From assembly GCA_003612405.1 (NCBI GenBank), contig RAYR01000025.1, positions 1 through 64,000 on the forward strand: DNA of 64,000 nucleotides, written 5' to 3'. The stretch's first letter is position 1, and each line of letters begins with the position of its first letter. The notes beneath the pieces were generated by a model that was given only the letters and a program-made list of their open reading frames with translations, made no database searches and was not told the origin of the DNA. Below are positions 5,319 through 46,144 of the stretch, in pieces. Source of the stretch: a bacterium 0.1xD8-71. Its GTDB lineage: Bacteria > Bacillota > Clostridia > Lachnospirales > Lachnospiraceae. Position numbers and translations under genes: made by a program.

Positions 5319-6076
5319 TTACTGCCTGTTTTCTTCTGGATGCTTATCCAATTCCTTTATAAATTCATAATAGCCGTACAGTTTACTTTCTCCTGCAAAC
5401 TTGAATTTCATGGTCCGCCCTTTCCGCGTCATTGCCCTACCGAAAGAAGGCTGTTCAGAATAAGCCGCTTTTATCTCATTCCCATGGCCGCCCGCCAATG
5501 ACTTACCGCCGACCCGCTTTCGGAGCCATGTCTCCCGCTCATAAAATCCCAATATGCCCGCATACTGTACTGATAATATGCCGCCAATTTTTGCTGCCCC
5601 AACAGCCTCATATCGCTGATCTGCTTTTGAAACATATCCATAAAGTCTGCCCTATCATGCAATCCCATCTCTCCTGTCTCCGGCGGAAGGGAAGAAAGAC
5701 CTCCGTTTTTATCCACACCAAGATGCGCTTCCAAAGCCCGCATCTCCACAACTGTCGCACATTTCGGATTGATCTTGTTGATATGTATGGTCTGTTCAAA
5801 TTCATCACCATTCTCATCAACACCCTTTGCAATGACTGTCGGGTCATCTTCTGTGGAGCCCTCTGCATACTTGATGTAATAAGACAATCCTGTGCCATTG
5901 GCACCGGAATACAGCATATCCTCTGTTTTCATATAAATCTTAATTCTGTTAGGTCTTGCCTTTACCCCTTTAGATACCTGCCCGGCAAAATTTTTCCCTG
6001 CCACATCCGTCTTTGGCTTTTTTGCTTCATATTCTGCCGTCGGGTAGCCTGGCAACCCAATTCCGTTAATGCCCAT
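5319..6076 (-). pseudogene. paralogue 2 of the lineage-specific family, broken by a one-base indel
   Basis: Start ATG at 6076 (MGINGIGLPGYPTAEYE) is chosen because GGAGG lies just upstream and the opening matches MNINGIGASAYPATG of the intact copy. The core DDPTVIAKGVDENGDEFEQ then HINKINPKCATVVEMRALEA is present. The upstream frame ends at 5471. Adding one T at the run 5543-5546 turns AYWDF-MSGR into AYWDFYERETWLRKR and continues to a natural end KLYGYYEFIKELDKHPEENR at 5319. The restored product would be about 252 residues. It could be a genuine pseudogene, slippage-based variation, or a sequencing error. Function unknown; soluble. Confidence 0.55.
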
Positions 6077-6096
6077 CTTCAAGTCCTCCATTCTTG

Positions 6097-7541: not shown

Positions 7542-8132
7542 TTATTTATCCAGCAGCCCCAAAAACTTCTTCCACTCCATATAGCCCTTTAAGTCCCTAT
7601 AGCAATACTTCGACTGCATAATATCTTTCACAACATTTACCCAGTCTATCTTTTCCGTAAAACTCCACGCACCGGAATGGCTCTCAGCATCTTTCACAGC
7701 TTTTACGACTGCGGCTTTCAACACAGTATCCTCAAAGCTGCCTCTTCCACTTTCTTTCAGTTGTGCAGTGTATGCATACATTTCAGCGGTATCACAGTTT
7801 TGGGGGTCTACCTTTGACACATCCACCATCTTTTCGATTACGCGCCCCGACCCGTCCCATATCTTCACTTTATATACAGGGTTTTCCGGATCAAAGTCTT
7901 GTGTCTTATAAACGGAAATGGAGGAACCGCTCACAAGCTCCGCCCCTGAAAATATCGCAACATCTCCTGAGCCTTCATCAGCGCCATGCAGAACGGCTGT
8001 CGCTTTCCCTTGCGTCTGTGCCGCCTCTGCCGCCTGTTTTGCAAAGTTTTCTCCTGCCATACCTCTTTGTGTCTTTCTCTCTTCACTCCCTGTTGCCGGA
8101 TATGCTGATGCTCCGATTCCGTTAATATTCAT
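7542..8132 (-). CDS. paralogue 3 (intact copy) of the lineage-specific family
   Basis: 196 residues, opening MNINGIGASAYPATGSEERK, with an Ala/Gln-rich segment to residue 50, then the family core DPENPVYKVKIWDGSGRVIE and MVDVSKVDPQNCDTAEMYAY (residues 78-125) and a helical tail ending YMEWKKFLGLLDK. The start has GGAGGCAG 9-10 bases upstream. No signal peptide, membrane helix or catalytic motif can be seen. The NINGIG opening and size recall small proteins common in motile Lachnospiraceae, but no flagellar gene is near. This is the only copy of the family here without a break. Function unknown. Confidence 0.65.
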   Translation of the reverse strand: MNINGIGASAYPATGSEERKTQRGMAGENFAKQAAEAAQTQGKATAVLHGADEGSGDVAIFSGAELVSGSSISVYKTQDFDPENPVYKVKIWDGSGRVIEKMVDVSKVDPQNCDTAEMYAYTAQLKESGRGSFEDTVLKAAVVKAVKDAESHSGAWSFTEKIDWVNVVKDIMQSKYCYRDLKGYMEWKKFLGLLDK

Positions 8133-8251
8133 TTTTAACTGTCTGCCTCCTCTATATTCCCTATAGTAGCTCTTCTACTAAATAATACGAGTCACACAGC
8201 AAAAAAGTTTCATTATAAGAAAAGGTATTATATAAATAATCCTCATAGAAA

Positions 8252-8294
8252 AACTGTTAAACACCTTCTTACATCGTCGGTATGTTTAACAGTT
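8252..8294 (-). terminator. hairpin downstream of the small membrane protein gene
   Basis: Perfect 12-bp arms AACTGTTAAACA and TGTTTAACAGTT; on the minus strand TTTTCTAT follows. Confidence 0.55.
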
Positions 8295-8325
8295 CCTGTT
8301 TTATTTCCGTATTTTTTATTTTCTC

Positions 8326-8781
8326 TTAGAAACAATATTCACTGACTATATTTACAATAGAAAGTAAAATAATAACTAAAAAAATTACAACACAGAGCAC
8401 ATTGTTTGTCCGCAATCTAGCCGGAGATTTCTTCATTTTCTCAACCCGATATTTTTCGGGAAGTTCATTTTCAAGCACTCTGTAAGCGTTGTCAATATAT
8501 GTTATCTTTTTATTTTCTACAATCATAATATACAGACCAAATAAGGCACATAGGATGCCCAATACTGAAAATACCCATACAGGTAATTTAGTAACCAATT
8601 CGCTTTCCACACTGAAAGCCGCCAAAAAATTCGGCAGGAAAGAGATAATAAGAGATAAATAAACCATTCTCCAAAAAGTCGAAATAAACCACTGATCGCG
8701 GTATTTCCACTCATCTCTATACAAATTCATGAGAGCAAGATAATTTTCAACGTCAAATAATTCTGTTTTAACTTCACTCAT
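8326..8781 (-). CDS. small three-helix membrane protein, function unknown
   Basis: 151 residues. Three hydrophobic segments are visible: around residues 36-55 (MVYLSLIISFLPNFLAAF), 67-90 (LPVWVFSVLGILCALFGLYI) and 125-147 (VLCVVIFLVIILLSIVNIV). A cytoplasmic-looking charged stretch between the second and third helices contains YRVLENELPEKYRVEKMKK. The arrangement is like small membrane proteins that sometimes accompany nucleotide-signalling or defence genes, but no partner is present and I do not recognise the family. The gene is clearly AT-richer than its neighbours, which hints at acquisition. Confidence 0.65.
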   Translation of the reverse strand: MSEVKTELFDVENYLALMNLYRDEWKYRDQWFISTFWRMVYLSLIISFLPNFLAAFSVESELVTKLPVWVFSVLGILCALFGLYIMIVENKKITYIDNAYRVLENELPEKYRVEKMKKSPARLRTNNVLCVVIFLVIILLSIVNIVSEYCF

Positions 8782-8941
8782 ATTGTTTTCCTCTCTGTCT
8801 TAATATTACATTCCTAAATAATCAAGTCGCATTTTGTCGTATTGTCACAACTTACTACAAACATAGCATACTTAAATTAATTTTTCTAGTTCAAAGACAG
8901 AAAAAATCCCCTGTAATCTTTATCATCTTATGACTCTCAAT

Positions 8942-9436
8942 TTATCTATGACTGCTGTCCTCTATGGCAGACCGTACACACATCAGGGAAAAGCCCAGCA
9001 GATTCTGCCCCTGCCACTCCTTCAGATCAAACCTTCTTTCATCTTTCATGGAAAGACCAATGCCCCATATCTTATCCTGCACTGCACACTCCGCCAGAAT
9101 ATGGTTCTGTGTGGCAAGCAGTTTCTGCTTTAACTCGTCGTTTTGCCAAAACTTTTCAAACAACCCCTGATAAACAATCACCTGCCGCATACCGCTCCAA
9201 ATGGCATCCTCATAGTTTTTTACAAGGCGTCCTAATGCCTTGATTTTTCCCACATCCGTTGTTTGCAATATTTCTTCCGCAATCTCTGTATCCTGAAAAA
9301 GAACTGCTTTCTGATACATCATATATTGCTCCATGGAAGAAAATTTAATATCTTTCACATAAAAATCTGAAAGGTACCAGTTACTGAAATATCCGTTTGC
9401 TTCCTCCGGATTATGAAAACATATTATCTTCCTCAT
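8942..9436 (-). CDS. NADAR family protein (YbiA-like N-glycosidase)
   Basis: About 164 residues. The NADAR signature is clear: YFSNWY (about residue 18), SSMEQYMMYQKA (about 35), IWSGMRQVIVYQGL (about 80), IWGIGLS (about 127) and GQNLLG near the end. Characterised relatives hydrolyse N-glycosidic bonds of riboflavin intermediates or remove ADP-ribose from nucleobases. The substrate here cannot be told. ATG at 9436 is preferred over the TTG six bases upstream because GAGGAGG sits 9 bases before it. The gene stands alone. Confidence 0.85.
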   Translation of the reverse strand: MRKIICFHNPEEANGYFSNWYLSDFYVKDIKFSSMEQYMMYQKAVLFQDTEIAEEILQTTDVGKIKALGRLVKNYEDAIWSGMRQVIVYQGLFEKFWQNDELKQKLLATQNHILAECAVQDKIWGIGLSMKDERRFDLKEWQGQNLLGFSLMCVRSAIEDSSHR

Positions 9437-9508
9437 ACACAATATCCTCCTCTTCTTGTGCTCTTTATTTTATTTAATCATTAATTTAACCCAAAAGCAA
9501 CATACAAC

Positions 9509-9540
9509 AAAAGGGACCACACACCCTCGCAGTCCCTTTT
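9509..9540 (-). terminator. terminator of the sugar operon
   Basis: Arms AAAAGGGAC and GTCCCTTTT enclose a 14-base loop, 34 bases beyond the last gene of the operon. The outer A/T tracts allow bidirectional use. Confidence 0.6.
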
Positions 9541-9573
9541 TACAAAATTTATGTCAACCAATCTTACGGTCGC

Positions 9574-11334
9574 TTACTTTCTCACACTTGCTACGATCAG
9601 CATAATCTTTTCCTGCTCTGCCACAATACGATAGGCACCTGCTTTTGCCGGAACAATTGCCGTCTCCGCATAATGGATTTCAAAAGGTTGGAAACTTCCG
9701 TCCACGCTTTCGATAAATGCATGGCTTCCTTCCACCAGATTCATCATGTGAACCGAATCCTCCATGGTGACAGTCAGGCGGTTGTTTACTGTATAGCGGA
9801 AGGTATCCAGAAATTCCCGTTCATGCAGTCCGGTTTTTTCAATCTGATAACCCTCTCCTTCTTCCACTGTCTCTTGCTGCCCTACCACATTGCGGTATAT
9901 CCAATCCGTATCTCTGTCCCACTGGATATTATTAAGTCCATGCTCAATGTGAATTGGTCTGGGAATCCCGTCCAGGCCCACTCTGCCCCAATCCCAGAGT
10001 TTAAAAGTAAAGATATACGGCGTAGCACTGATTTCCAATACCATGGTATCCTGTCCGGAACAGTGTATCGTCCCTGCCGGTATCAGAACATGATCATGCT
10101 TCTTTACCGGAACTCTATTCACATATTTTTCGGCAGGAAAAAGAATTTTTCCTGTCTGTGCGGCTCGCAGATCCCGGGCCATGGCATCCTTGTCCACATC
10201 TTTTTGCAGTCCCAGATAGACATAGGTTTCCTTCCTGTCATCCGTATCCAGAAGATAATAACTCTCATCCTGAGTGTAATGCATCCCAAAGGTATCCTGG
10301 ATATACTCTGTAAGAGGGTGTACCTGCAAGGAAAGATTGCCGCCGCCCATGGTATCCAGCAAATCAAAGCGAATGGGAAATTCAGCACCAAAGCGTGCGT
10401 GCACACGTTCTCCCAAAAGTTCATGGGGGCGATAAAACACAAGGTCCACAGCCGGCACCTTTACGGTCACTGCACCGAACTCAAAAAGCAGGCAATTTTC
10501 TTCAGGAACGCCGTCAAAACTCCAGGCAAAGTTTTCCTCGTCAGGATCCAGGCCAAAATTTTCCTGCATCCAATGTCCTCCCCATACCCCAGGATCAAAG
10601 TAGGGTTCCATGCGGAAGGGTTCTCTGCTGGTAATATCCAAGGCACTGCGAAAAGCGTCTCCTGTAATCATTTTTGGACGGCCTTCTTCCTCCGTATCCA
10701 GCATAAAGTCAAATCGATCATATCTTTCCCGCTTATGCCGGTCGGCAAGGCGCCATTCCACAAAAAAACCTTTCTTATATTTGGCTAGTATATGAGCCTG
10801 TGTATTCGTACAATGCCAGTTAGGCATACCTTTCCGGTAGCGAAGCTGGATTTCCCAACGGGTCAGATTGCAATAGATATAGATATCCGGTTCTGTCAGG
10901 ATTCCGGCTCCCATTCCCAATACGACAACACATCCCTGCGAAATATCTTCCACTGCTTCCTGTGCCCGTTCCAGCTTTTCTGGTTCAAATAAGTCAGCTA
11001 TCTTTTTATGACACATCACGCCAAATACTCTGTCCGTAGTGATATAATCCGCAAAGGTCTTATTGATTTCTTCTTCCGTCTTTGCGTAATCCTCCATGTC
11101 AAAAATATGTACCGGTTTCAACGCCTCTGCAAGAGTCATGATTTCCTCTTTTTGTACTCCCGGATACATATCAAAACATACCAATGCCTTCTTCTTTTTC
11201 CTGCAAACACCAAGCACTCTCTCCTGCAATATTCTTCCGATGGCTTCGGCACCTTCCCATGCCTGGTTCTCAAAACCGTCGATCCGCTTCACCGGATGAA
11301 GCTCATAATTATGATATTTACGCAAACCGTTCAT
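9574..11334 (-). CDS. class I mannose-6-phosphate isomerase-like protein with extra N-terminal domain
   Basis: 586 residues from ATG 11334, chosen for the AGGAAAGG upstream; ATG 11361 lacks a site. The C-terminal part (about residue 240 onward) has the type I phosphomannose isomerase metal-site pattern: LSLQVHP, DESYYLLD and IPAGTIHCSG, giving Gln, His, Glu and His ligands. The first 210-240 residues are an additional domain with VCFDMYP and VVVLGMGAGIL strands and DIYIYCNLTRWEIQLRYRKG, vaguely like a nucleotide-kinase fold without a Walker A loop. It is the last gene of the sugar operon. The inferred role is interconversion of mannose- and fructose-type sugar phosphates produced after import; the added domain may bind or phosphorylate the sugar. 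Confidence 0.75.
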   Translation of the reverse strand: MNGLRKYHNYELHPVKRIDGFENQAWEGAEAIGRILQERVLGVCRKKKKALVCFDMYPGVQKEEIMTLAEALKPVHIFDMEDYAKTEEEINKTFADYITTDRVFGVMCHKKIADLFEPEKLERAQEAVEDISQGCVVVLGMGAGILTEPDIYIYCNLTRWEIQLRYRKGMPNWHCTNTQAHILAKYKKGFFVEWRLADRHKRERYDRFDFMLDTEEEGRPKMITGDAFRSALDITSREPFRMEPYFDPGVWGGHWMQENFGLDPDEENFAWSFDGVPEENCLLFEFGAVTVKVPAVDLVFYRPHELLGERVHARFGAEFPIRFDLLDTMGGGNLSLQVHPLTEYIQDTFGMHYTQDESYYLLDTDDRKETYVYLGLQKDVDKDAMARDLRAAQTGKILFPAEKYVNRVPVKKHDHVLIPAGTIHCSGQDTMVLEISATPYIFTFKLWDWGRVGLDGIPRPIHIEHGLNNIQWDRDTDWIYRNVVGQQETVEEGEGYQIEKTGLHEREFLDTFRYTVNNRLTVTMEDSVHMMNLVEGSHAFIESVDGSFQPFEIHYAETAIVPAKAGAYRIVAEQEKIMLIVASVRK

Positions 11335-11363
11335 TTTCTGTCCTTTCCTGTTTCTGCACATGC

Positions 11364-12029
11364 CTATGATTCTTTGGTCAGCATCCTGTACCGCATAAAA
11401 TATTCCACATGTTCTGCAAAAATACGTGCAATGATATCACAGCCCTCTTTCTCTGGATGTACGCCATCGGGCAGAAAACGCCCGCTGTTCTGCTCGCAGA
11501 ATCCTGTCAGGGCACGCATTTCCACAAGCGGTACGGCATAAGCCTGCGCTGTTTCGCGTAAGGCGCGTTCATAGTCTGCAAGTGTCAGACCCACCTTGTT
11601 TGTCGTTATCCATGCATCCCCTGCCTCCTGTCCGCCATCCGGCATTTCCCGGCGATAAAGCGGCGTTGCCATGACTAACAGACTATCCGGTGCATATCTG
11701 CGGATATTTTTTATGGCAATTTCCAATGCCCCTATATAGGTTGTACCGTCCTGCTGCCCGCAGCTTCCTATCTGTGCGCCCCAATACCAGTCATTTGTTC
11801 CGTGCCACAAAATAACCACATCGGCGCCTTCACAGACATACGCATATAAAGTCAACATTTTTACTACGGAATCGGGAGTTACCGTAGATGCCCCGCTTTG
11901 CGCGACCGCAAGATTATGAAATTCCCGAGGCGCAAGCAGTTGCCGCAGCTGTATCTCATATCCTCCGTCCCCAATGAATGGCGTGGAAATACTGTCTCCC
12001 AAGATTACCATCTTTCTGATTATGCTCAC
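11364..12029 (-). CDS. SGNH/GDSL hydrolase (probable carbohydrate esterase)
   Basis: 221 residues, no signal peptide, so cytoplasmic. Catalytic blocks are visible: ILGDSIS (Ser, about residue 13), a Gly in the second block (QSGAS), HGTNDWYWG (Asn, about 75) and DGVHPEKEG (Asp and His, about 190). The family removes acetyl or other acyl groups from sugars. Located between the two propeller proteins and the isomerase, it would fit deacylation of an imported oligosaccharide. The GTG start at 12029 has GGGAGG almost touching it, so the true start may be the ATG 18 bases in. Confidence 0.8.
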   Translation of the reverse strand: MSIIRKMVILGDSISTPFIGDGGYEIQLRQLLAPREFHNLAVAQSGASTVTPDSVVKMLTLYAYVCEGADVVILWHGTNDWYWGAQIGSCGQQDGTTYIGALEIAIKNIRRYAPDSLLVMATPLYRREMPDGGQEAGDAWITTNKVGLTLADYERALRETAQAYAVPLVEMRALTGFCEQNSGRFLPDGVHPEKEGCDIIARIFAEHVEYFMRYRMLTKES

Positions 12030-12042
12030 ACCTCCCTGTTAT

Positions 12043-13722
12043 CTATCTCTGTTCTGGCAGCACCGACTCACAGATCTCAAGAAAACGTGGTGAATAAATC
12101 ATGGCCAGTTCTTGATTTGCTTCCATACTGCACGCATTGGTATTATAACTTACCAGAAGCCGTCCCGGTTCCGACAGACTAGGATGGGCTTTGGCATTAT
12201 AAGTATAAATACTGTAGCCAAGTTCCGGTTCCGGACAGTGATAAAGCCTTATTATTTCCGAGAATGGCCCCACCGGGGAATCAGCTATGCGACACGAAAC
12301 AATGGGAGAATTTGTATATTCTGTAAATACCAGAATATATTTTCCCTGGTACAGCTTACCAAAATAAGGAGAAAGGCTCATCTCACAGGACACATTCCGG
12401 CACAGGCATGCCGCCTTCTCAATCGCCGGATTCCACGCTGTTCCGTCATAATACTCCATTTTATCCCACTGAGGAAAATCCGCTTCCCGAATACGGGCCG
12501 CATACAGGTTTTTCTCAATCCATTCCGATTGATAGCCGTAAATATAGATATAACCATCCGGATCCGGCGCTTTTGCCTCCTCGGTATTCCGGAAAATCGC
12601 CGCGCCGAATACCAACTCACCGCCATCCGCATTACGATACACAAGCGGGCTCTTTGTCTGCTCCATCTCATCCCACAGCACCTCTCCATTCTCTACCGGT
12701 GCCGAGATAAAAGCCGCCCCCTCCACTGCGAACTGATATCCTTCAACCCCCTGGGGATCCTCTCTGACAATAAGCGGAAAGGCATAATAGCGTCCATGCA
12801 GGATCATGGAATCCTGTCCCCAGAAAAAGGAATCACTGTCCTCTATGCCCAGGGCTTTCTTATCCGGGCTGATAAGGCATGCCGGTGTTCCGTCTTCCAT
12901 CTTCCGATACAGAAACTGCGCCTGACTGGGATCCGCCGTGCCTTCCCTCAGGATACAGCCGCTGTTATTGATCATCACCGTGTCAAGTGAACGTTTATCT
13001 GTACCAGATATCCTGCTGCCGATAAAGGTATCTCCAAACATTAAGAGGGTGCGTGTGTGATTGGGTACATTATCCGCCCCGCCAAAAGGCGTACTGTAGA
13101 TACCGTCCGCACCGGCCCAGCCGTGGCGCTGTGCCAGAAGTCTGTTCCATTCCGGTGCCGGCCGCGTATACAGTCCCGTACCGCTGTAAAGACGCAGTTT
13201 GGCCAGTCCAAACAGACCGCCGAATACATTCTCTGCGTCATAATTATGGACACCGGATTGTCCCTGCCACGCAAGACGGATATATCGGGCTGTAATGCCT
13301 CCAAAATCGATTACCTTCCCATCCTCTAAATTGGTAGGCAGCATATTTCCTGTTCCTGATGCCTTCTTCAGGCAATAAGGATAACCCTCTTTTTGCAGTT
13401 CCATCCACTGCTTCCCATCAATGGAATGATACACCTGTATCTTTCGCAGTCCGCAGACTGTATAATCCGTACCATCCCCTGAAATCCTGTTATAATTCCA
13501 TATCAAAAGCTGTCCCAGGGGCGCTGTTTTTTCCAGCTGGAAGGAGATGCTTCCGCCTTCCGGTGTTCTCTTCAGCCACATAGTAAATCCGTTGGTGCTC
13601 AGCATACATCCATGAGCAGAATCCATGCCAAAGTCATTGATCAGATTTGTGGTACAACACTCGAGCCCTTCATAGTTATCACCGAGGGGCCACAACCGTA
13701 ACTGTTCTCCTCTTATATTCAT
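12043..13722 (-). CDS. discoidin-like plus DUF4185/DUF5005-type propeller protein, copy B
   Basis: 559 residues, no signal peptide. Residues 1-190 look like an F5/8-type (discoidin, CBM32-like) domain: PLGQLLIWNYNR, CGLRKIQVYHSIDGKQW and a closing ARYIRLAWQG. The rest resembles glycosidase-like beta-propellers annotated as DUF4185/DUF5005: GADGIYSTPFGG, TLLMFGDTFIG, DSFFWGQDSM, a repeated bladed pattern and the closing YNAKAHPSLSEPGRLLVSYN. Its start overlaps the stop of the upstream paralogue by ATGA, so the two are translationally coupled. Activity is unproven; candidate roles are glycoside hydrolase, phosphorylase-like enzyme or sugar-binding protein acting on imported glycan. Confidence 0.75.
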   Translation of the reverse strand: MNIRGEQLRLWPLGDNYEGLECCTTNLINDFGMDSAHGCMLSTNGFTMWLKRTPEGGSISFQLEKTAPLGQLLIWNYNRISGDGTDYTVCGLRKIQVYHSIDGKQWMELQKEGYPYCLKKASGTGNMLPTNLEDGKVIDFGGITARYIRLAWQGQSGVHNYDAENVFGGLFGLAKLRLYSGTGLYTRPAPEWNRLLAQRHGWAGADGIYSTPFGGADNVPNHTRTLLMFGDTFIGSRISGTDKRSLDTVMINNSGCILREGTADPSQAQFLYRKMEDGTPACLISPDKKALGIEDSDSFFWGQDSMILHGRYYAFPLIVREDPQGVEGYQFAVEGAAFISAPVENGEVLWDEMEQTKSPLVYRNADGGELVFGAAIFRNTEEAKAPDPDGYIYIYGYQSEWIEKNLYAARIREADFPQWDKMEYYDGTAWNPAIEKAACLCRNVSCEMSLSPYFGKLYQGKYILVFTEYTNSPIVSCRIADSPVGPFSEIIRLYHCPEPELGYSIYTYNAKAHPSLSEPGRLLVSYNTNACSMEANQELAMIYSPRFLEICESVLPEQR

Positions 13723-15395
13723 TTGGTCACCTCCACCAATCGAATGAATTTAGGCCGGCAGATATCACCATGGGCCATATGCATCTGCCACGCAATGGTA
13801 TTGACATTGTAACTGACAAGGTACTCTCCGGCAGGCGACAGATGAGGGTGGGCTTTCGCATTATAAGTATATATGCCCCGTCCCTGACAGACCTCCTCGG
13901 TAAAGTAAACTTCATGGGCTTCCGAGAACGGCCCCCAGGGTGCGGGCGCCGTGCGGTATGCGATCACCGGGGAATTCACCTCTTTCTGGTATACCAGCAG
14001 ATATTCCTCCTGGTGCAGCTTTCCCGTAATCCGGGAAAGGCTTAGTTCGCAGGACACATCTTTGGCCAAGGCTGCCGACCTGGCAATATCCTCACTCCAT
14101 CCTTCTCCGTCATAAAACTGCCATGCCTCTGTCTGGGCAATCATCGTCTCCGGAATCCGGGCCACGCATAAATCCGCGCCCATTCCCACATGAATGGTTC
14201 CCAGCAGGTAGATATAACCATCCGCATTTTCTATGCCTGCGGCTTCCGTATTCGGGAAGACACAGCCGCCATAATAAATACTCTTTCCCTCTGTCTCATA
14301 ATATAGATTCGTTTTACAGTGTTCTGCTTTATCCCAACGGATGTGCCCTTCTTCCACCGGTGATATGACCATGGACACACCGTCTACACGAAACTGAAAT
14401 CCTTCCGGACCTTCCGGCCAGTCATGTATGGTCAGCGGAAAGGTATAACATCTGCCGTCCGCCATCAGACTGTCCTGAGGCCAGTAATATCCGGGAGAAG
14501 ACGGGTCGTTTAACACACTGACAGGGGGATTTAACAGGCTGTCATCCGAACCATCCTCATGTATACCCCAGGTAAAATCCATCCGGGTCAGGTCTGGTAT
14601 GGATTCCGGTACAAAGGCACAGGAATTGTGCAGCATATGCATCCTGTCACTGCGGTGGAAATCCAGAGGATCCACTTGATCGATCAGGGTATCCCCAAAA
14701 GTAATCGTGGTATCACAGCCGCTTCCATAGACTTCCCTTCCGTCCATGGGAATCGTAAAGACGCCGTCGCTTCCCGTCCATCCGTCATTGTTCTGCATGA
14801 TCGCGGACCAGGGCTCATCTCTGACTACGGCAAACCCTTCTCCCATGGTAAACCGCACCTTGGAGAGTCCGTAAGAATCCGCCAGAACATTTTCTTCATC
14901 ATAATTTCCCACCCCCGGCTGTGCGGGAACAGATAATTTCACATAACGGGCTGTCTGACCTCCAAAGCTGAAAGGCTCCCCGCCCACGGTATTCGTAGGC
15001 GGCATATGCTCCTCTCCACAGGCCTTTTCAAAAGTCACATATCCCGTATGCGCGTCATGCCATTCCACGCTGTCCAGAGAGTAGGATATTTTCACATTTC
15101 TGATACCGCAAAGGGTATAATCTTTTTCATCCGGCCTGCGGTTATAATTCCATATATAAAGTTTCCCCAATGGGTAAAAGCCGCCGAAATCAAATAGTAT
15201 GTCAAAATCTTTTGTGCGTCCGGACAACATCCACATATCACTTCCCAGGGGATGATTATCATGGGTTGCATCACCTGCTGTCTTGTGCTCTTCCAGACCA
15301 TAATCATTGACCAGATTCACAGCCAGGTAAGGTGCTTCCTTAAGAAGCGGTGCACTGACAGTCACCCGCAGTTCATCACCATATCGAAATTTCAT
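13719..15395 (-). CDS. discoidin-like plus DUF4185/DUF5005-type propeller protein, copy A
   Basis: 558 residues with the same architecture as the next gene: PLGKLYIWNYNRR and CGIRNVKISYSLDSVEW (discoidin-like, residues 70-120), ARYVKLSVPAQPGVGNYD, then TGSDGVFTIPMDG, TTITFGDTLIDQ, YYWPQDSLM and the family ending YNAKAHPHLSPAGEYLVSYN. No signal peptide or membrane helix. The pair is a diverged tandem duplication, moderately similar throughout. It lies 25 bases after the ROK kinase gene. Differences in the middle loops suggest distinct linkages or sugars. Enzymatic function is inference from fold resemblance and operon context only. Confidence 0.75.
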   Translation of the reverse strand: MKFRYGDELRVTVSAPLLKEAPYLAVNLVNDYGLEEHKTAGDATHDNHPLGSDMWMLSGRTKDFDILFDFGGFYPLGKLYIWNYNRRPDEKDYTLCGIRNVKISYSLDSVEWHDAHTGYVTFEKACGEEHMPPTNTVGGEPFSFGGQTARYVKLSVPAQPGVGNYDEENVLADSYGLSKVRFTMGEGFAVVRDEPWSAIMQNNDGWTGSDGVFTIPMDGREVYGSGCDTTITFGDTLIDQVDPLDFHRSDRMHMLHNSCAFVPESIPDLTRMDFTWGIHEDGSDDSLLNPPVSVLNDPSSPGYYWPQDSLMADGRCYTFPLTIHDWPEGPEGFQFRVDGVSMVISPVEEGHIRWDKAEHCKTNLYYETEGKSIYYGGCVFPNTEAAGIENADGYIYLLGTIHVGMGADLCVARIPETMIAQTEAWQFYDGEGWSEDIARSAALAKDVSCELSLSRITGKLHQEEYLLVYQKEVNSPVIAYRTAPAPWGPFSEAHEVYFTEEVCQGRGIYTYNAKAHPHLSPAGEYLVSYNVNTIAWQMHMAHGDICRPKFIRLVEVTK

Positions 15396-15420
15396 AGATT
15401 TCCTCCATCCTCATAACCTT

Positions 15421-16365
15421 TTACTGATAATCAGCTAATGCCGCTGCACCCACAATCCCCGCATCATTTTGAAGCTGTGCCGCACGAATCTCAGGCATCG
15501 CCAGGCTTCCACAGTAAAGCTGTGTTTCCACCTTGTTACGTATCGGTGCAAGGAGTCTTTCTCCTTCACCGCTCAATCCCCCGCCGATCACAAAGATCTG
15601 GGGATTAAAAATATTGATCAGACTGCCAATCCCGCTCGCCAGATCACTGGTATAAGTATCAAACACCTCTAATGCACAGACATCCTCCTGGGCAATTGCC
15701 TGAAAGACGGCCATACCGTCCAACTTACCCTTCTCCTCTTTCAGGCGGGCCAATACCGAATCCTGACATCGTTGTGCTGCCGCCTCTGCTTCCCGGATCA
15801 GTGCCGTTACCGATGCATATACCTCGAAACAGCCCTTTCTTCCGCAATTACATGGCAAACCGTCTTTCTTGATCACCATATGTCCCAGGATGCCTGCTGC
15901 GCCGTTACTGCCATGATACAGTCTGTTATGCAGTATCAGTCCACCGCCTATCCCTGTACCGATGGTAACCATCACCATGGAGTCTGCCTCTTTGCCCGCA
16001 CCTGCAACAAACTCTCCCAGGGCTGCACATACTGCATCATTATCCACATAGACCTTACAGGCAAAACGCTCGCCCAATATCTCACCCAATGGGACATGAT
16101 GCCAGTCTATGTTGTTGGAATATATCACTTCGCCGTTTGTCCGATCAATCATCCCGGCGCACCCAACCCCTATGTGAGTGAGCGTCCCTGCTTCCACCTC
16201 TTTCTCTTTCAGCAGGGACTGCACCATATCGCCAATGCGCCGGATAATTATTTCAGGAGTCTGCCAGGATCTGGTCTCTATCTTTCTTTTCCATATGATC
16301 CGTTCCTTTTCATCCACCAGTCCGGCAGACACAGTGGTACCTCCAATATCAATTCCAATCTTCAT
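15421..16365 (-). CDS. ROK family sugar kinase
   Basis: 314 residues. ATP-binding DIGGTTVSAGLVDE at the N-terminus, catalytic VDNDAVCAALGE (Asp, about residue 107), TIGTGIGGGLI, the ROK zinc motif GHMVIKKDGLPCNCGRKGCFE (His plus three Cys, residues 160-180) and C-terminal IGGGLSGEGE are all present. There is no N-terminal winged helix, so it is a kinase and not a repressor. It likely phosphorylates a hexose, N-acetylhexosamine or mannose released by the operon's enzymes. ATG is preceded by GAGGAGC. Neighbours are the permease (13 bases) and the first propeller protein (25 bases). Confidence 0.88.
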   Translation of the reverse strand: MKIGIDIGGTTVSAGLVDEKERIIWKRKIETRSWQTPEIIIRRIGDMVQSLLKEKEVEAGTLTHIGVGCAGMIDRTNGEVIYSNNIDWHHVPLGEILGERFACKVYVDNDAVCAALGEFVAGAGKEADSMVMVTIGTGIGGGLILHNRLYHGSNGAAGILGHMVIKKDGLPCNCGRKGCFEVYASVTALIREAEAAAQRCQDSVLARLKEEKGKLDGMAVFQAIAQEDVCALEVFDTYTSDLASGIGSLINIFNPQIFVIGGGLSGEGERLLAPIRNKVETQLYCGSLAMPEIRAAQLQNDAGIVGAAALADYQ

Positions 16366-16378
16366 CTCATCAAGCTCC

Positions 16379-17206
16379 TCAGCCTTTCACCGCCCCTTCT
16401 GTGACACCCTCTATAATACGGTTCGAGAAAATAATGAACAGTATCAGAATCGGGATTGTCGAAAGGACAGATACCGCCATTGACATATCGACATTCCGCA
16501 GCAGATTGCCTGTGTATTTGGTCACCAGAAGCGGCACCGTTTTATTGCTGTCACTCTTTAAGAAAATGAGCGGCAGGAAGAACTGGTTCCAGATTCCCAC
16601 CGAAGTAGTGATACATACCGACATGACCACCGGCGACGCAATGGGAAACATAATCCGGAAAAAGGTAGTCCATTCTCCTGCGCCGTCCATAATGGCCGAC
16701 TCGTATATTTCCTTCGGCAGCTTTTCAAAGAAATTGGTGAGCATAAATACCGGCAGTGAAATACCCGCAGAGGAAATCAATATCACCGAAAGCAGATTGT
16801 CCACAAGTTTCACATTGTTCATCATCAAAAACAACGGCACCACACTAAGCTGCACAGGAAACATCATTCCGATCAGGAAAAATACCCGTACCAGTCTTTT
16901 TAGCGGGAATGTAAACCGCGCTATCCCATATGCCGTAATGGACGATATCAGAATCAAAAGTACAAGACTGACGGTCAGGATTATCACACTGTTGAAAAAA
17001 TACCGAAAAAAGTGATCCTGTGTGATAAGTCTCGCATAACTCTGCACCCCCAGTGACTCTGGCTTCCCAAATGTATTGCTCAGAAAATCATTCCGCGGCC
17101 GGAGCGAATTGTACACAAGATACAGTAAAATAGCAAAGGTGGCCAAAGAATATATCCACATGAATATCTTAAAAAAGCCTGCCATAATTCCCTGTTTTTT
17201 CTGCAT
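16379..17206 (-). CDS. carbohydrate ABC transporter permease, MalG type
   Basis: 275 residues, six predicted membrane helices. The EAA loop that contacts the ATPase reads EIYESAIMDGAGEWTTFF (about residue 170) and continues RIMFPIAS. It pairs with the MalF-type gene 3 bases upstream, GGAGGAC of which forms this gene's ribosome binding site. As usual for Bacillota CUT1 systems, no ATPase gene is in the operon; a shared MsmK-type ATPase elsewhere would energise it. Confidence 0.9.
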   Translation of the reverse strand: MQKKQGIMAGFFKIFMWIYSLATFAILLYLVYNSLRPRNDFLSNTFGKPESLGVQSYARLITQDHFFRYFFNSVIILTVSLVLLILISSITAYGIARFTFPLKRLVRVFFLIGMMFPVQLSVVPLFLMMNNVKLVDNLLSVILISSAGISLPVFMLTNFFEKLPKEIYESAIMDGAGEWTTFFRIMFPIASPVVMSVCITTSVGIWNQFFLPLIFLKSDSNKTVPLLVTKYTGNLLRNVDMSMAVSVLSTIPILILFIIFSNRIIEGVTEGAVKG

Positions 17207-17209
17207 CGC

Positions 17210-18136
17210 TCAGTCCTCCTTCTTCGTGCGGAACATCAGTACAATCTGACAGATTGCAACCACAAAAACCATCAGGAAAAGTACACATGCTATGGTGGTT
17301 CCCATACCCATGGCATTAACACTCACCTTTCCTCCAAGAGGGCTGTTCTCCCCAAAGGCCGTCCGGTAGAACATAAGTGCAAGTGTGTCCACGCTGCCGG
17401 AAATCCCGCCGCCGGAACCGCCAAGTATATAATTAAAATCAAAGATGGTCATGGAAATGATGTACGATGTCAATATCAGATTAAAAATCGTCCCTTTAAT
17501 CTGCGGAATCACAATATACCACAAACGCTTCCAGAATCCCGCGCCATCCACATAGGCACTCTCTATCATCTCTCCTGAAATCATCTTCATGGCACCGATA
17601 AAGTACACCATTCCCACACCCATACCAGCCCATGTCATCATAAACCAGATCACATAGATTCCGTATTCCGGAATCCCCATCCAGGGTCTGGCCAGATTCC
17701 CAAACCCTGTCTCCCGCAAAACCTTGTTGACAATTCCAAAGGATCCGTCAAATAATAATGTGAAAATAAACACGATGACGGGTGTGGAGATAAACTGGGG
17801 CGAAAACACCGCCACCTGGAAGAAGCTGCTTCCCCTGGCTTTTGAATGAATGGTATAGGCCATGATAATCTGTATCGGCATCATAATGATAACCGACAGG
17901 AAAAATATGGTCAGGCAGTTCTTCAAGGCATTGCCCAACTGACTCATCAGGTTCGAGTTGGTAAACAGATCTTTATAATTTTGCAGTCCCACATATTCCT
18001 TTGGCCCGTAACCGTTCCATTGGAAGAAACTGATATATCCTGCCGAGAGAATGGGATATACAACAAACACAGAATACACAATGATACCCGGCAGTAAAAA
18101 CATCAGATAGGGATTTTTGTTGAAAAATTTTCTCAT
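17210..18136 (-). CDS. carbohydrate ABC transporter permease, MalF type
   Basis: 308 residues, six helices, starting MRKFFNKNPYLMFLLPGIIV. The EAA motif is EMIESAYVDGAGFWKRLWYI (about residue 200). The ATG at 18136 is preferred over an upstream TTG because AGGAGGC is 9 bases before it. It follows the solute-binding protein gene by 38 bases. Together with the MalG-type partner it forms the translocation channel of a CUT1-type oligosaccharide importer in the cytoplasmic membrane. Confidence 0.9.
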   Translation of the reverse strand: MRKFFNKNPYLMFLLPGIIVYSVFVVYPILSAGYISFFQWNGYGPKEYVGLQNYKDLFTNSNLMSQLGNALKNCLTIFFLSVIIMMPIQIIMAYTIHSKARGSSFFQVAVFSPQFISTPVIVFIFTLLFDGSFGIVNKVLRETGFGNLARPWMGIPEYGIYVIWFMMTWAGMGVGMVYFIGAMKMISGEMIESAYVDGAGFWKRLWYIVIPQIKGTIFNLILTSYIISMTIFDFNYILGGSGGGISGSVDTLALMFYRTAFGENSPLGGKVSVNAMGMGTTIACVLFLMVFVVAICQIVLMFRTKKED

Positions 18137-18174
18137 AGTCAAACAGCCTCCTGAAAGCCTCGCTTCCTATCTGT

Positions 18175-19494
18175 CTATTTCTCAAGTTCCTGCCTGAAAA
18201 GATCCAGCGCTTCATCCACAGTGTACTCTCCTGTCATCAGCTTCGGAAGCACATCGTTGGTAAACAGATCTGCCGGCTGACTGTTTTCGTTGCCTGCAAA
18301 GGAGAGCACGCCAAACAAATTCTGCCCTATCACATCATATTCCGCAGCGGCCGCAATCACCGGATCGGTAATTGTAATCCCGTCCACGATCGGAATACTG
18401 GGTACATGATCAAACATGATCTGCTCCGCTTCCTCGCTGCTTAAGAAAGCAAGATACTTGCCCACCGCTTCCGGTTCTGTCGTCTTGGCGGACGCCGAAT
18501 AGGTCAGACTCTGACTGGGCCCCGTCTGGGAATAACCTTTTCCGTCCTTACCCGGAATCGGGAAACATCCCACGTTCATATTTTCATATAAACCTTTATT
18601 CCATGTTCCGTCTACAATCATGGCCCCCTGTCCGTTTGCAAAAGAAAGCTGTGCGCTGGCCATATCAGAAGCCGCATAATCTGTGCCAGCATATCCCGCA
18701 TCCAGAAATGCACGGTAATCTTCAAAGCACTCTCTCACGTTGGAATAATCGCTGATTTCAGCGCCTTCATTCCAGGTAACCATCTCACTTTCCATATAGG
18801 CAGGCGCCATAGCCCCGATCAGCCAGTAACGATCCAGCCATCCGTTGCCACCGTATGCCATGGGCAGTTCCCCGTTATCCTGCAATACCTTACATACATC
18901 AAGAAATTCATCCCATGTCTTCGGCACTGCAAGCTCATATTTGTCAAAGGTGTCCACATTATAAAAGACAACCGCATAGTCAAAAAATGCCGGCAGAGAA
19001 CAATAGATCACATCATCCACCGTCGCATAGTCATATGCATCCTCCGGGAAACGGGAGGTATCGGTGATATACTCATTCAGCGGAAGCAGATAGCCGTTGG
19101 CTGCCATCTCTGACATGGATGTATTTTTATTGCCCTGTGAGAAAAATACATCCGGAAGAGAATCGGTCTGAACCGCAACAGTCAGGGAGTCAAAACTGCC
19201 AGACCACTGATAGTTAATCTTGATACCGGGGTTCTGCTTCTCAAATGCCTCATTGATTTCGGCAAAAGCATCTGCATACAGAGCCTGCTGTCCTTCCTCG
19301 CCCCAGACAGTCAGTGTAACCTCTTTATCCTCTTTATCTTCTTTAACACTATTTTGGGTATTATCCTGGGTCTGTGCGGCAGAATCCGTCCCGGAAGCCG
19401 CCCCGCTGTCCGCTGCCGGCTTAGATCCACAAGCCATAAGAAGCGCTGTCAAGGTAACCGTAAGTGTCATCATTTTTATTTTTTTCATTTTCAT
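18175..19494 (-). CDS. extracellular solute-binding lipoprotein of sugar ABC importer
   Basis: 439 residues. A lipoprotein signal peptide (MKMKKIKMM, hydrophobic core, LLMACGSKP) places it on the outer face of the membrane, tethered at Cys22. A low-complexity linker precedes the family 1 binding-protein fold: LTVWGEEGQQAL, FEKQNPGIKINYQWSG, MAYGGNGWLDRYW, ANGQGAMIVDGTW, YLAFLSSEEAEQI. It captures the oligosaccharide for the two permeases. First gene of the operon, with AGGAG before ATG and a recognisable promoter about 210 bases upstream. Confidence 0.92.
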   Translation of the reverse strand: MKMKKIKMMTLTVTLTALLMACGSKPAADSGAASGTDSAAQTQDNTQNSVKEDKEDKEVTLTVWGEEGQQALYADAFAEINEAFEKQNPGIKINYQWSGSFDSLTVAVQTDSLPDVFFSQGNKNTSMSEMAANGYLLPLNEYITDTSRFPEDAYDYATVDDVIYCSLPAFFDYAVVFYNVDTFDKYELAVPKTWDEFLDVCKVLQDNGELPMAYGGNGWLDRYWLIGAMAPAYMESEMVTWNEGAEISDYSNVRECFEDYRAFLDAGYAGTDYAASDMASAQLSFANGQGAMIVDGTWNKGLYENMNVGCFPIPGKDGKGYSQTGPSQSLTYSASAKTTEPEAVGKYLAFLSSEEAEQIMFDHVPSIPIVDGITITDPVIAAAAEYDVIGQNLFGVLSFAGNENSQPADLFTNDVLPKLMTGEYTVDEALDLFRQELEK

Positions 19495-19707: not shown

Positions 19708-19737
19708 AGTATACTATAGCATTGTCTATAAAGTCAA
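19708..19737 (-). promoter_or_regulatory. probable sigma-A promoter of the sugar operon
   Basis: On the minus strand TTGACT (19737-19732), an 18-base spacer, TATACT (19713-19708). The transcript would carry a leader of about 200 bases before the binding-protein gene; an operator for the nearby ROK repressor may lie there but none is obvious. This covers most of the 390-base gap at 19495-19888. Confidence 0.6.
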
Positions 19738-19888: not shown

Positions 19889-21046
19889 TTATCTTCCCAA
19901 CTGATTTTCCATGGTAAGTGCAGATGTGCCGATAAAAGATGCATCACTCACAAAGGAAGACCCTTCCACCTCGATTTTGCGGCGATAGCTCCATTTCAGA
20001 CTTTCACTTTGCAGCCTCTCCCGCACATTGGATACAATATAATCCTTGGCCCCGTACAATTCTCCGCCGATAATCACACCCTCCATATCAAAAGCCGCCT
20101 GAAAATTTGAAATCGCCACATAAAGATACTCTGCCATCCGGTCTACCGCTCGCTGGGATATGGAGTCTGCCTCCAATATTCCGCCGGCCAGTTTCATCCA
20201 TGTTATCGAGTCATCCCCGCTCTGTTCACGGGCCCATTTCACGATCGCCGTTATGCTGCTGTATTGTTCCAGGCAGCCGCGCTGACCACAGGTACAGGGC
20301 AGTCCGTCCATCTGTACTATCGAATGGCCAATAATACCCGCGAGACCTGATGTGCCGGTAAAAAGCTTCCGGTTCAGGATAATACCGCCGCCGATTCCGG
20401 AAGAGATACCGATATACAGAAAGTTTCTCATGGAACTGTGGCGCCCATAATAAGCTTCCGCCAGGGCTGCCAGACACATGTCATTTTGCAGATAACAGGG
20501 AAGATGGTATCTTTCCTCCAGCAGACTGACAATGGACAGATTATGAATATTCCCAAAATCAGGGGGATTTAAGATTTCCCCTTCCTCAATAGAAAGAGGC
20601 CCCACACATGAGACCCCGATTCCCCAGAAATTCCTGCTCAGGGGATCCTGCATCATCATATCACATAAATAAAAGATGTTGTCCGTCAGAATCTGGTTGG
20701 TATCCACCTGCCGGAACGGAATATGCTCTGCGCGCAAAATCGTCCCTCTCGCATTTACGATACCCACCAGAAGCATTTCCCGATCAATGGATACCGCCAG
20801 CGTAAGCAGCGCATTGGGATTTAATTCCAGGAGCTTGGGCTTGCGCCCGCCGCTTGAGCTCAGCTCCCCGCACTCCCGCAGCACGCCCTGTTCCATGTAC
20901 TCATTGGCTATGGCCGTCACAGCCATCTTGCTCAAACCGGACAGCACGCTGAGTTCGTTGCGCGGCAAAGCGCCCTTTGTCGCAAGGGCCTTGAGAATGA
21001 CATATTTATTTTTGGTATTCATGTCATGGTGGTTTACACCCGTCAT
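19889..21046 (-). CDS. ROK family transcriptional repressor (NagC/XylR type)
   Basis: 385 residues. N-terminal winged helix: VILKALATKGALPRNELSVL then SGLSKMAVTAIANEYMEQG (residues 15-60). The C-terminal ROK domain has NDMCLAALAEAYYG, IGISSGIGGGIIL and the zinc motif GHSIVQMDGLPCTCGQRGC. It would bind DNA and release it on binding a sugar or sugar phosphate. Its ATG overlaps the HD-GYP stop as ATGA, with GGGAGG 10 bases upstream, so it is co-translated with the signalling operon. It also lies just upstream of the sugar operon on the same strand, the likeliest regulatory target. Confidence 0.88.
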   Translation of the reverse strand: MTGVNHHDMNTKNKYVILKALATKGALPRNELSVLSGLSKMAVTAIANEYMEQGVLRECGELSSSGGRKPKLLELNPNALLTLAVSIDREMLLVGIVNARGTILRAEHIPFRQVDTNQILTDNIFYLCDMMMQDPLSRNFWGIGVSCVGPLSIEEGEILNPPDFGNIHNLSIVSLLEERYHLPCYLQNDMCLAALAEAYYGRHSSMRNFLYIGISSGIGGGIILNRKLFTGTSGLAGIIGHSIVQMDGLPCTCGQRGCLEQYSSITAIVKWAREQSGDDSITWMKLAGGILEADSISQRAVDRMAEYLYVAISNFQAAFDMEGVIIGGELYGAKDYIVSNVRERLQSESLKWSYRRKIEVEGSSFVSDASFIGTSALTMENQLGR

Positions 21047-22515
21047 CCGCTGACTTCCTCCCTTTTAAGCGCCTCATCCAGCCATTCCACAAGTCTTAAA
21101 TCCACTTTTCCCCTCTGTGCCATATCCTTTAATATCTCAATCGCCTTTGGCCTTGAGATAGGTTCTTTATAGGGCCTGTCCGTAGCTACAAGCGCATCAT
21201 AAATGTCCACCACCGTAAGAAGCCTTGTTTCCAGATCCAGTTCATCACCCTTTAAGCTGTTGGGATAACCGCTTCCATCCAGATATTCATGATGGGCGCC
21301 CACCCACTTTGGCACCATGGAAAATCCTTTATAAAACTGCACTTTCTCCAGAATCCTGGCGGTCATGACCACATGATTCTCCATCTCCTTACGCTCCTGC
21401 ACTGTCAATGTCCCGCTTCGGATACTCAGACATTCCGTCTCTCTTTGTGTGAGATAAGAAAGGACTGTGCCATCCTCGCTCACATGCCGTTTCTTAGAAA
21501 GTCTCGCTATATGTTCACATGCCTCATCACTCACATGATCAATCACATTTATCTCATGAATAAATGCCAGCTCCGACTCCAGGTCTCTGTTGACAGCCTC
21601 AAACTCTTCTCTGGTTATTCTGCCCCGCAGCATATCAATCTCATACAACGCTTTCAGCAGTTTAAACCGGTTATCTACTTTCTCAATCTCCTTGTCCAGT
21701 CTGGTAGCCTTATTCATAATGCTTAAAGGCACTACCATCTTTCCGATATCATGGATGAGTGCTGCCAACATCAATTGTTCCTTCCTTGCAGGATCAAAGG
21801 TCTCTTTGCATTTACCTTCTTTATGTAATTCCACAATATAATCCGCCAGAAGACTGGCATATTTTTCCACATTTCTTGTGTGCAGGGCGTTGTATGGCGT
21901 CCTCTCCTCCAAGGCCGTTGTAAGAGCCTCCACAAAGGAATATATCTGCGTTTTAAGAGCCTCCACATAAGAAAGATTCGTCAGTTCAATGGCCGCAATG
22001 GATCCCAGCGCCCGGATAATAATCTCATACTCTTCATTAAAGGCGGTTACCTTCCCCTCTTCATCCATGGCATTAATCAACTGTAATACGCCGATCAGTT
22101 CATTCTCATTATTTGCAAGAGGCACCACCAGCTGCGACTGTGTACGATATCCGGTAAGATTATCATACTGTCTGGGCCCGGAGAAATCAAAACGGCTGCT
22201 GGCATACACATCCGGTATGTTCACCACTTCCTGATGAATCGCCGCATAGGAGCACACATTTTCCTCCTTCATGGGAACCGGCGGCAGATCAATCGGTTCT
22301 CCATCCATTCCCCGGCTTATGCCCTTGGAAAGTGTCTTCATAAACTTAAAGCGCAATTCGTCATTCTCATATAAATACAAGGTACTCGCATCACAGTTTG
22401 TGATTTCCATCCCCTTATCCAGAATGGTCATCAGCAGACGGTTTCTGTCCCTTTCCGTAGAAAGACGGATTCCAATATCCATTATCTTCTCAAAATCTTC
22501 ATGTTGCAAATGCAT
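21043..22515 (-). CDS. GAF-HD-GYP domain protein (putative cyclic-di-nucleotide phosphodiesterase)
   Basis: 490 residues from ATG 22515, two bases after the preceding stop and behind GAGGGAAGAG. A GAF domain occupies about residues 20-170 (CDASTLYLYE, QSQLVVPL, LIGVLQLINAMD). The HD-GYP domain follows: HTRNVEKYASLLA, ALIHDIGKMVVP (HD pair, about 257) and HHEYLDGSGYPNSLKGDEL (GYP signature, about 427). A helical insert of about 120 residues, partly coiled-coil, lies inside the domain. Key residues are intact, so phosphodiesterase activity is plausible. The GAF domain could sense the cyclic nucleotide made by the cyclase in the same operon. Confidence 0.88.
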   Translation of the reverse strand: MHLQHEDFEKIMDIGIRLSTERDRNRLLMTILDKGMEITNCDASTLYLYENDELRFKFMKTLSKGISRGMDGEPIDLPPVPMKEENVCSYAAIHQEVVNIPDVYASSRFDFSGPRQYDNLTGYRTQSQLVVPLANNENELIGVLQLINAMDEEGKVTAFNEEYEIIIRALGSIAAIELTNLSYVEALKTQIYSFVEALTTALEERTPYNALHTRNVEKYASLLADYIVELHKEGKCKETFDPARKEQLMLAALIHDIGKMVVPLSIMNKATRLDKEIEKVDNRFKLLKALYEIDMLRGRITREEFEAVNRDLESELAFIHEINVIDHVSDEACEHIARLSKKRHVSEDGTVLSYLTQRETECLSIRSGTLTVQERKEMENHVVMTARILEKVQFYKGFSMVPKWVGAHHEYLDGSGYPNSLKGDELDLETRLLTVVDIYDALVATDRPYKEPISRPKAIEILKDMAQRGKVDLRLVEWLDEALKREEVSG

Positions 22516-22516
22516 C

Positions 22517-46074: not shown

Positions 46075-46144
46075 TATAGTTCTTTCTCCGTTTCTTTGAT
46101 GCAACCTATTTTACATGCATATCATTATACTCCCATTTTCTATC

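Follow-up and report, generated by a model that had tools for sequence, protein, structure and literature searches.

The glycoside hydrolase family GH183 of CAZy, which corresponds to the Pfam domain DUF4185, was established in about 2023 around D-arabinan-degrading enzymes, with an interest in the mycobacterial cell wall. According to the accessible parts of the two descriptions, its characterised members are retaining endo-D-arabinanases that act on arabinogalactan and/or lipoarabinomannan; in EndoMA1 the nucleophile is D33 and the acid/base residue D51, EndoMA1 and EndoMA2 carry signal sequences and are thought to be extracellular, and the GH183 cluster of M. arabinogalactanolyticum includes a sugar ATP-binding cassette (ABC) importer and a putative kinase and isomerase (PMC10509167, PMC10115798). 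A second system, the CPL locus of S. pneumoniae, serves the use of mannose-rich N-glycans: in the part of the paper at hand, a binding lipoprotein and two permeases (NgtS-P1-P2) import mannose-rich oligosaccharides, and a ROK protein, a putative sugar kinase, is encoded together with the glycosidases GH20C, GH38, GH125, GH92 and GH29 (PMC5215778). Here we describe a cluster of eight genes (positions 9574-19494, minus strand) in a stretch of 64,000 nucleotides, hereafter the window, that forms positions 1 to 64,000 of contig RAYR01000025.1 from the Lachnospiraceae bacterium 0.1xD8-71. The cluster encodes a CUT1-type importer, a ROK kinase, two tandem propeller proteins (here called P1 and P2), an SGNH hydrolase and a long mannose-6-phosphate isomerase (PMI). 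We propose, with evenly balanced confidence, that it is a mannoside-utilisation operon in which a DUF4185/GH183-related pair and an esterase stand in the position of a GH38 mannosidase. The glycan that the operon serves probably contains mannose.

The locus resembles both described systems in part. P1 and P2 share with EndoMA1 (8HHV), DgGH4185a/b and Rv3707c, as far as these are described, a DUF4185 match above cut-off and the FGDT motif, and have a candidate for the nucleophilic aspartate upstream of it; they differ in that 4HBS is their only direct match in the PDB, in that no signal peptide was seen, and in their discoidin-like N-terminus. Unlike the GH183 loci, the window operon contains ROK and PMI genes rather than D-arabinose genes, and neither GH172 nor GH116. 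The lipoprotein with two permeases and the ROK protein recall the S. pneumoniae locus, which differs in its GH38, GH125 and GH92 mannosidases; Pfam recognised no GH38, GH76, GH92 or GH125 in the window operon. DUF4185 is not among the proteins listed for CPL, and the term 'mannose-6-phosphate' is absent from the main text of that paper as far as it was accessible (PMC5215778).

The strongest single argument for mannose in the imported compound is the kinship of the importer, whose closest relatives found adjoin genes for a long PMI, ROK proteins and GH38. These relatives are locus L069 of genome G1392 (43% identity for the substrate-binding protein, 52% for permease 1 and 55% for permease 2) and locus L071 on a plasmid of A. 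citreus (44%, 60% and 60%), while six further CUT1 systems from the loci surveyed here, among them the one in the GH38 operon of the window's genome, reached 22-30% when compared like with like. L069 encodes one ROK protein, a long PMI (52-54%) and a GH38 enzyme; L071 encodes two ROK proteins, a long PMI (32%), an SGNH hydrolase and a GH38 enzyme. By sequence, the importer of the window thus appears closely related to importers that accompany mannosidases, and because GH38 in these loci takes the place of the window's propeller pair, the pair and the esterase would fill the GH38 position.

For the long PMI itself (595 aa), Pfam gave nothing above cut-off (PMI_typeI_cat reached 13.4 bits), and the same holds for its first ∼240 residues. 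Residues 245-547 align with the B. subtilis mannose-6-phosphate isomerase 1QWR (E 5.7e-11), and the second half carries the motifs QVHP (346), DESYY (365) and PAGTIH (428). H348, E366 and H433, which we take to be the metal ligands, lie in motifs matching 1QWR. The protein is 49% identical over 570 aa to a Hymenobacter sp. DG25B protein of 596 aa that is annotated as a class I PMI, and homologues occur in 10 of 200 genomes of the family, its own included (38-65% identity to the nine others). The preliminary description, made from the sequence alone, had taken it for a PMI-like fusion; the isomerase relationship stands, while the architecture of ∼590 aa is family-wide and not a local fusion.

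The neighbourhoods of long PMI genes in other genomes also point to mannose, a link that the preliminary description had suggested. GH38 was found near the gene in five of nine loci of the family (L033, L034, L036, L037 and L038), accompanied in L036 by two GH76 genes, and DUF5054 proteins follow the PMI in L034, L035 and L036; their THLDIGFT stretch presumably resembles GH38. Neighbours in these nine loci were identified through blastp searches of a small set of references, with Pfam for chosen genes, and other families were possibly missed. Among plasmids, 50 records had a long-PMI match; nine loci were viewed, including those of DG25B and A. citreus, and a mannosidase-family gene (GH38, GH92 or GH76) lay near the long PMI in seven. 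Four encode GH92 (H. tibetensis, H. volaticus, Parabacteroides and Spirosoma), with GH38 in addition on the Parabacteroides plasmid and two GH76 genes on that of Spirosoma; the A. citreus plasmid encodes GH38. Both Deinococcus loci combine GH38 (64.2 and 50.9 bits; annotated hypothetical, the first 259 aa) with ROK and CUT1 genes, which slightly favours a mannose substrate. Our literature search found nothing on DUF5054 with mannose, nor on GH92, PMI and ROK together with alpha-mannan.

P1 and P2, which are 37% identical to each other, both pass the DUF4185 cut-off of 39.5 bits, with partial matches to model positions 95-278 (P1) and 137-270 (P2) of 309. The earlier view that the locus has no member of a known glycosidase family was therefore wrong, as DUF4185 is GH183 according to the accessible parts of PMC10115798 and PMC10509167. 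A direct PDB search returned 4HBS for P1 (E 2.4e-4) and P2 (E 5.2e-4) and not EndoMA1, which was reached via a Hymenobacter relative (E 3.3e-7); a match of P2 to a lectin (E 1.4) was set aside as unrelated. A comparison of groups with hhalign supported homology of that of P1/P2 to the canonical one (97.3%, E 2.4e-11). On these alignments, P1 and P2 are a divergent branch of DUF4185/GH183.

The acid/base residue is consistent with this assignment. In the 8HHV alignment, D33 of EndoMA1 lies in TDLG and D51 in FGDT, where 8IC1 has an asparagine, the D51N variant of the paper as far as it is accessible. The FGDT acid/base motif is kept in P1 (D235) and P2 (D231), in a column shared with canonical members, and a candidate nucleophile lies upstream in a W-x-G-x-D motif (P1 D210 in GSDG, P2 D206 in GADG). 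Both the W-x-G-x-D and the F-x-D-T column are invariant in a nine-sequence alignment (A4), and both motifs are kept in 10 of 11 other propellers (in L008 as FQDS), the exception being the first propeller of Cohnella terricola (L009), which is without W-x-G-x-D. A stricter motif pattern missed the propellers of G966, G1175 and G1200; a looser one caught all. The spacing between candidate nucleophile and acid/base is 18 residues in EndoMA1 and a Nonomuraea relative, 17 in that of S. cattleyicolor and 25 in P1 and P2. P1 and P2 are probably active glycosidases; that they cut mannosidic bonds we regard as somewhat short of an even chance.

The preliminary description had called P1 and P2 discoidin-plus-propeller proteins without signal peptides. 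The propeller part agrees with the DUF4185 match, while the discoidin-like match (F5_F8_type_C; residues 52-159 in P1) stays below its cut-off of 28.2 bits in both (17.2 and 18.5 bits) and passes in the relatives from G1175 (35.9) and G1200 (32.7). A crude hydropathy scan detected nothing resembling a signal peptide in P1, P2 or the PMI, in agreement with that description; the scan is weak, as it scored a lipoprotein-like Hymenobacter protein low (0.65). An AlphaFold model of P1 built from three sequences had a mean pLDDT of 40.9.

Relatives of the propellers are sparse. A propeller query was positive in one of 61 relatives, own genome included, and negative in the 36 others of the genus; a two-row profile gave three of 392 genomes of the order, own included, the other two being matches to the discoidin region; a four-row profile gave three of 397 in the family (one partial, G1059) and five of 391 in the class, own genome included each time; and PF13810 gave four of 398 in the phylum, own included, and none of 14 control genomes. 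These samples overlap, so that the counts are not additive. A scan of genome contigs gave two loci (L008 and L009); its silence on other species means little, because it used discoidin-domain peptides only. Beyond the partial match, the further relatives belong to G966 (family) and to G1175, G1200, G1392 and G1473 (class), and CUT1 permease genes adjoin the propeller in all five (blastp), with GH38 nearby in three; both associations speak for the mannoside reading. PF13810 scores exceed the cut-off in Hymenobacter (59.3 and 59.2), Cohnella (40.1 and 45.4), G1175 (41.8) and G1200 (45.0) and fall below it in G966 (37.1), G1392 (32.5), G1473 (30.2) and L008 (32.6), and the S. cattleyicolor protein (L051) has no Pfam match at E 0.001. 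L008 is a lone secreted-looking protein, the Cohnella locus holds two secreted-looking DUF4185/discoidin proteins in tandem with a full GH38 gene upstream, and a GH38-like frame lies ∼6 kb from the Nonomuraea relative (L050), which like that of S. cattleyicolor is actinobacterial and comes from an unannotated locus. In the Cohnella proteins, the discoidin domain appears by eye to be inserted within the propeller. A tree of 12 propellers, three of which were left untrimmed, gives the appearance that P1/P2 and the Hymenobacter pair duplicated independently, with weak support (UFBoot 85 and 80).

The tie between propeller and esterase in the earlier scheme is backed by two gene fusions. G1392 and G1473 encode DUF4185-SGNH proteins of 701 and 682 aa, with the GDSL domain C-terminal (PF13472, 78.6 bits each), in the same order as the P2 and SGNH genes of the window. 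The SGNH protein of the window has the stretches GDS (GDSIS), GTND and DGVHP, presumably the SGNH blocks GDS, GTND and DxxH. It has no detectable similarity to the fused SGNH domain or to the Hymenobacter esterase. Different SGNH lineages may therefore have been recruited to the partnership, which would point to an acylated substrate. In all five further propeller loci we also observed URO-D family genes (8 of 8 scanned match PF01208) and found none in the window operon; they could, as a guess, possibly serve methyl transfer in the use of methylated sugars.

A similar gene set, for which the preliminary description had proposed a search, is found in another phylum on a plasmid of Hymenobacter sp. 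DG25B (Table 1). That locus is alike in its ROK protein, long PMI, two DUF4185 proteins and esterase of SGNH-superfamily type; it is unlike in its SusC/SusD and major facilitator superfamily (MFS) transport, and its esterase is of the SASA family (PF03629). The N-termini of its DUF4185 pair look lipoprotein-like and exported by eye.

From the gene set, the families, the conserved motifs, the importer kinship, the neighbourhoods and the fusions, all read from sequence, the following course is predicted for the genes, which would be co-transcribed. A short oligosaccharide that is acylated and contains mannose would enter the cytoplasm through the CUT1 importer, for which a shared ATPase would have to be encoded elsewhere. 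Inside the cell, the SGNH hydrolase would strip the acyl groups. Both propellers would then cleave glycosidic bonds by a two-aspartate retaining mechanism, and P1 and P2 would probably split linkages or chain positions between them. Released mannose would be phosphorylated by the ROK kinase, and the long PMI would convert mannose-6-phosphate into fructose-6-phosphate for glycolysis. A ROK-family kinase gene and a PMI-family isomerase gene are both present in the operon; by sequence the kinase is nearest to glucokinases (ROK glucokinase subfamily TIGR00744 of NCBIfam, 268.3 bits, cut-off 260.35; best solved relative 3VGK). This course of import, deacylation, propeller cleavage, phosphorylation and isomerisation in one cytoplasmic uptake-and-processing locus is that of the preliminary description, and appears to be the best-fitting scheme. 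The more specific idea that P1 and P2 form an undescribed subfamily of the GH183 superfamily, cytoplasmic and acting on acylated mannosides, which replaces GH38 and is teamed with an SGNH deacylase, fused to it in two genomes, we offer tentatively and with more doubt than confidence.

Several observations weigh against a propeller pair in the position of GH38. Some long-PMI loci are without a recognised mannosidase, namely four of the nine in the family (L035, with DUF5054 only, L039, L040 and L041) and, among the plasmids, those of Listeria and DG25B, the latter with the DUF4185 pair. DUF4185 genes were found in none of the nine family loci, and the long PMI in none of the five further propeller loci within the fetched stretch; anywhere in the genome it occurs in two of six (those five and G1059), at 54% and 30% identity. 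Within the same fetched stretches, G1175 and G1200 showed no recognisable GH38 or SGNH gene, and in G966 (two GH38 genes), G1392 (one) and G1473 (two) the propeller stands alongside GH38 rather than replacing it. The lack of similarity among the SGNH partners and the failure of both MAFFT and hhalign to place the candidate nucleophile on the D33 column of EndoMA1 count on the same side. So do two GH38 genes elsewhere in the window's genome, through which cleavage could occur in trans, and the fact that all GH183 enzymes described in the accessible text cut D-arabinan (PMC10509167, PMC10115798).

These points lend themselves to other explanations. The activity of described GH183 enzymes on arabinogalactan and/or lipoarabinomannan would fit scavenging of arabinomannan or mixed mannose-furanosides, in which the propellers cut D-arabinofuranosyl or other furanosyl bonds of actinobacterial lipoarabinomannan-like fragments and mannose is used via ROK and PMI. 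DUF2961/GH172, the partner of GH183 in the accessible parts of PMC10509167 and PMC10115798, is encoded in G1473, at a distance of ∼7 kb from the gene for the DUF4185-SGNH fusion, and in G725, where it immediately follows a canonical DUF4185 gene, and a fucose-isomerase-family gene on a fourth contig of the window's genome could act on D-arabinose. However, Pfam and NCBIfam recognised no GH172, GH116 or D-arabinose isomerase or kinase among nine scanned genes, and DUF2961 was not found in the genome (nor in any of 14 control genomes). Together with the divergence of the propellers, their match to 4HBS rather than EndoMA1 and the failure of the crude scan to show in them the signal sequences that EndoMA1 and EndoMA2 have, this makes arabinomannan scavenging unlikely. 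Alternatively, the propellers could be glycosidases for another sugar or of other chemistry, such as furanoside cleavage or phosphorolysis, while the two GH38 genes of the genome, which lie on another contig with a DUF1861 gene and their own, distinct CUT1 importer, release mannose in trans. Five-bladed propellers are found in several GH families that work by other mechanisms, and the presence of propeller and GH38 side by side in three genomes suggests that the two may do different jobs. On the other hand, neither the window operon nor the annotated Hymenobacter plasmid locus has GH38, GH92 or GH76 with its propellers, and the conserved F-x-D-T and the invariant aspartate suggest hydrolysis of the GH183 kind; we regard this account as a minor possibility. 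A structural or carbohydrate-binding role of the propellers, without catalysis, would suit the discoidin-like domains and the loss of W-x-G-x-D in the Cohnella relative. It is highly improbable, as both motif aspartates are kept in P1, P2 and all nine A4 members, two genomes encode relatives that form fusion proteins with an SGNH hydrolase, and the crude scan saw no export signal. The related prospect, raised in the preliminary description, of an unrelated family function such as adhesion is not what the accessible literature reports, where the characterised members are enzymes (PMC10115798, PMC10509167). A mannoside-utilisation operon remains our preferred reading. Since an ordinary PMI was detected on a third contig, by a model that does not detect the long PMI, the PMI of the operon would be an extra copy.

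The physical layout of the locus agrees with its earlier description as eight co-directional, tightly spaced genes. All eight are open and lie on the minus strand, separated in transcription order by 32, 3, 13, 25, -4, 13 and 2 bp, and the importer, kinase and SGNH genes have the Pfam matches above cut-off expected of them (Table 1). Together with a promoter-like site and a terminator-like hairpin, the small gaps are consistent with a single transcript, and the eight genes fit one transcription unit. Both kinds of signal were near chance in the scanned region (32 promoter-like sites versus 23.7 in shuffles, sd 4.6; 14 hairpins versus 11.0, sd 3.3). A ROK-family transcriptional regulator, possibly local, is encoded 394 bp upstream; its helix-turn-helix match (HTH_24) scores 17.2 bits, under the cut-off of 21.9, and regulator-like ROK genes also precede the loci L061 (confirmed) and L062 of relatives. 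Inverted repeats upstream of the operon were imperfect only, none convincing as an operator, and PHROGs and phage records gave no match. The start of the regulator gene overlaps a GAF-HD gene by 4 bp, which may place both on one transcript, and a CHASE2-cyclase gene lies further upstream. Beyond the terminator-like site, the window encodes a NADAR-domain protein, two small proteins that resemble each other at the N-terminus (INGIG...YP) and a 439-aa protein between them; a 777-aa protein matches DUF6070.

Table 1. Coordinates of the operon, its surroundings and the loci compared with it (window positions unless a record or locus is named).
Feature	Location	Strand	Evidence or content
CUT1-type substrate-binding lipoprotein	18175..19494	(-)	SBP_bac_1 PF01547, 134.9 bits; lipobox-like N-terminus by eye
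CUT1 permease 1	17210..18142	(-)	BPD_transp_1 PF00528, 43.3 bits
CUT1 permease 2	16379..17206	(-)	BPD_transp_1 PF00528, 55.0 bits
ROK sugar kinase, glucokinase-like by sequence	15421..16365	(-)	PF00480, 245.7 bits
P1, discoidin-like domain and DUF4185/GH183-related propeller	13719..15395	(-)	PF13810, 54.3 bits
P2, paralogue of P1	12043..13722	(-)	PF13810, 51.3 bits; 4-bp overlap with P1
SGNH/GDSL hydrolase, proposed deacylase	11364..12029	(-)	Lipase_GDSL_2 PF13472, 52.4 bits
Long (595 aa) class I mannose-6-phosphate isomerase family protein	9574..11361	(-)	Alignment to 1QWR
Promoter-like site, weak evidence	19708..19737	(-)	TTGACT-18-TATACT; 10/12 matches; not clearly above regional chance
Terminator-like hairpin, ∼34 bp 3′ of PMI gene	9509..9540	(-)	13-pair stem, tail GTTGTATGTT
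ROK-family transcriptional regulator (HTH and ROK), possible local regulator	19889..21046	(-)	PF00480, 180.3 bits
GAF-HD gene	21043-22554		
CHASE2-cyclase gene	23358-25175		
NADAR-domain gene	8942-9442		PF08719, 165.1 bits
Small proteins, INGIG...YP N-termini	5471-6100, 7542-8132		No Pfam match
439-aa protein	6097-7416		No Pfam match
777-aa protein	43771-46104		DUF6070, 626 bits in two stretches
Two GH38 genes, DUF1861 gene and CUT1 importer, own genome (G000:C1)	L065:5968-16452		
Hymenobacter sp. DG25B plasmid locus	NZ_CP010056.1 75716-100789		SusC, hypothetical, SusD, ROK, long PMI, MFS porter, hypothetical, DUF4185, sialate O-acetylesterase, DUF4185
Cohnella terricola tandem propellers	L009:6910-12139		
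DUF2961/GH172 gene, G1473	L064:18189-19379		
DUF2961/GH172 gene, G725	L043:10385-11437		
URO-D genes	L059:1572-2792, L061:5512-6732, L062:5301-6533		PF01208
URO-D genes	L063:7567-8676, 8755-9729; L064:3935-5029, 8189-9151, 11578-12633		PF01208

The proposal is directly testable, as it names two proteins, their fused counterparts from other genomes and a defined set of candidate substrates. If it is true, a cytoplasmic, mannose-linked branch would widen the chemistry of GH183 and would be a reason against labelling every DUF4185 protein an arabinanase. Titles and the starts of abstracts in the DUF4185 and GH183 literature named no mannoside-cutting member, in searches none of which was combined with mannose. 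The locus itself would then add a type of operon in which an unrelated fold takes the place of the mannosidase.

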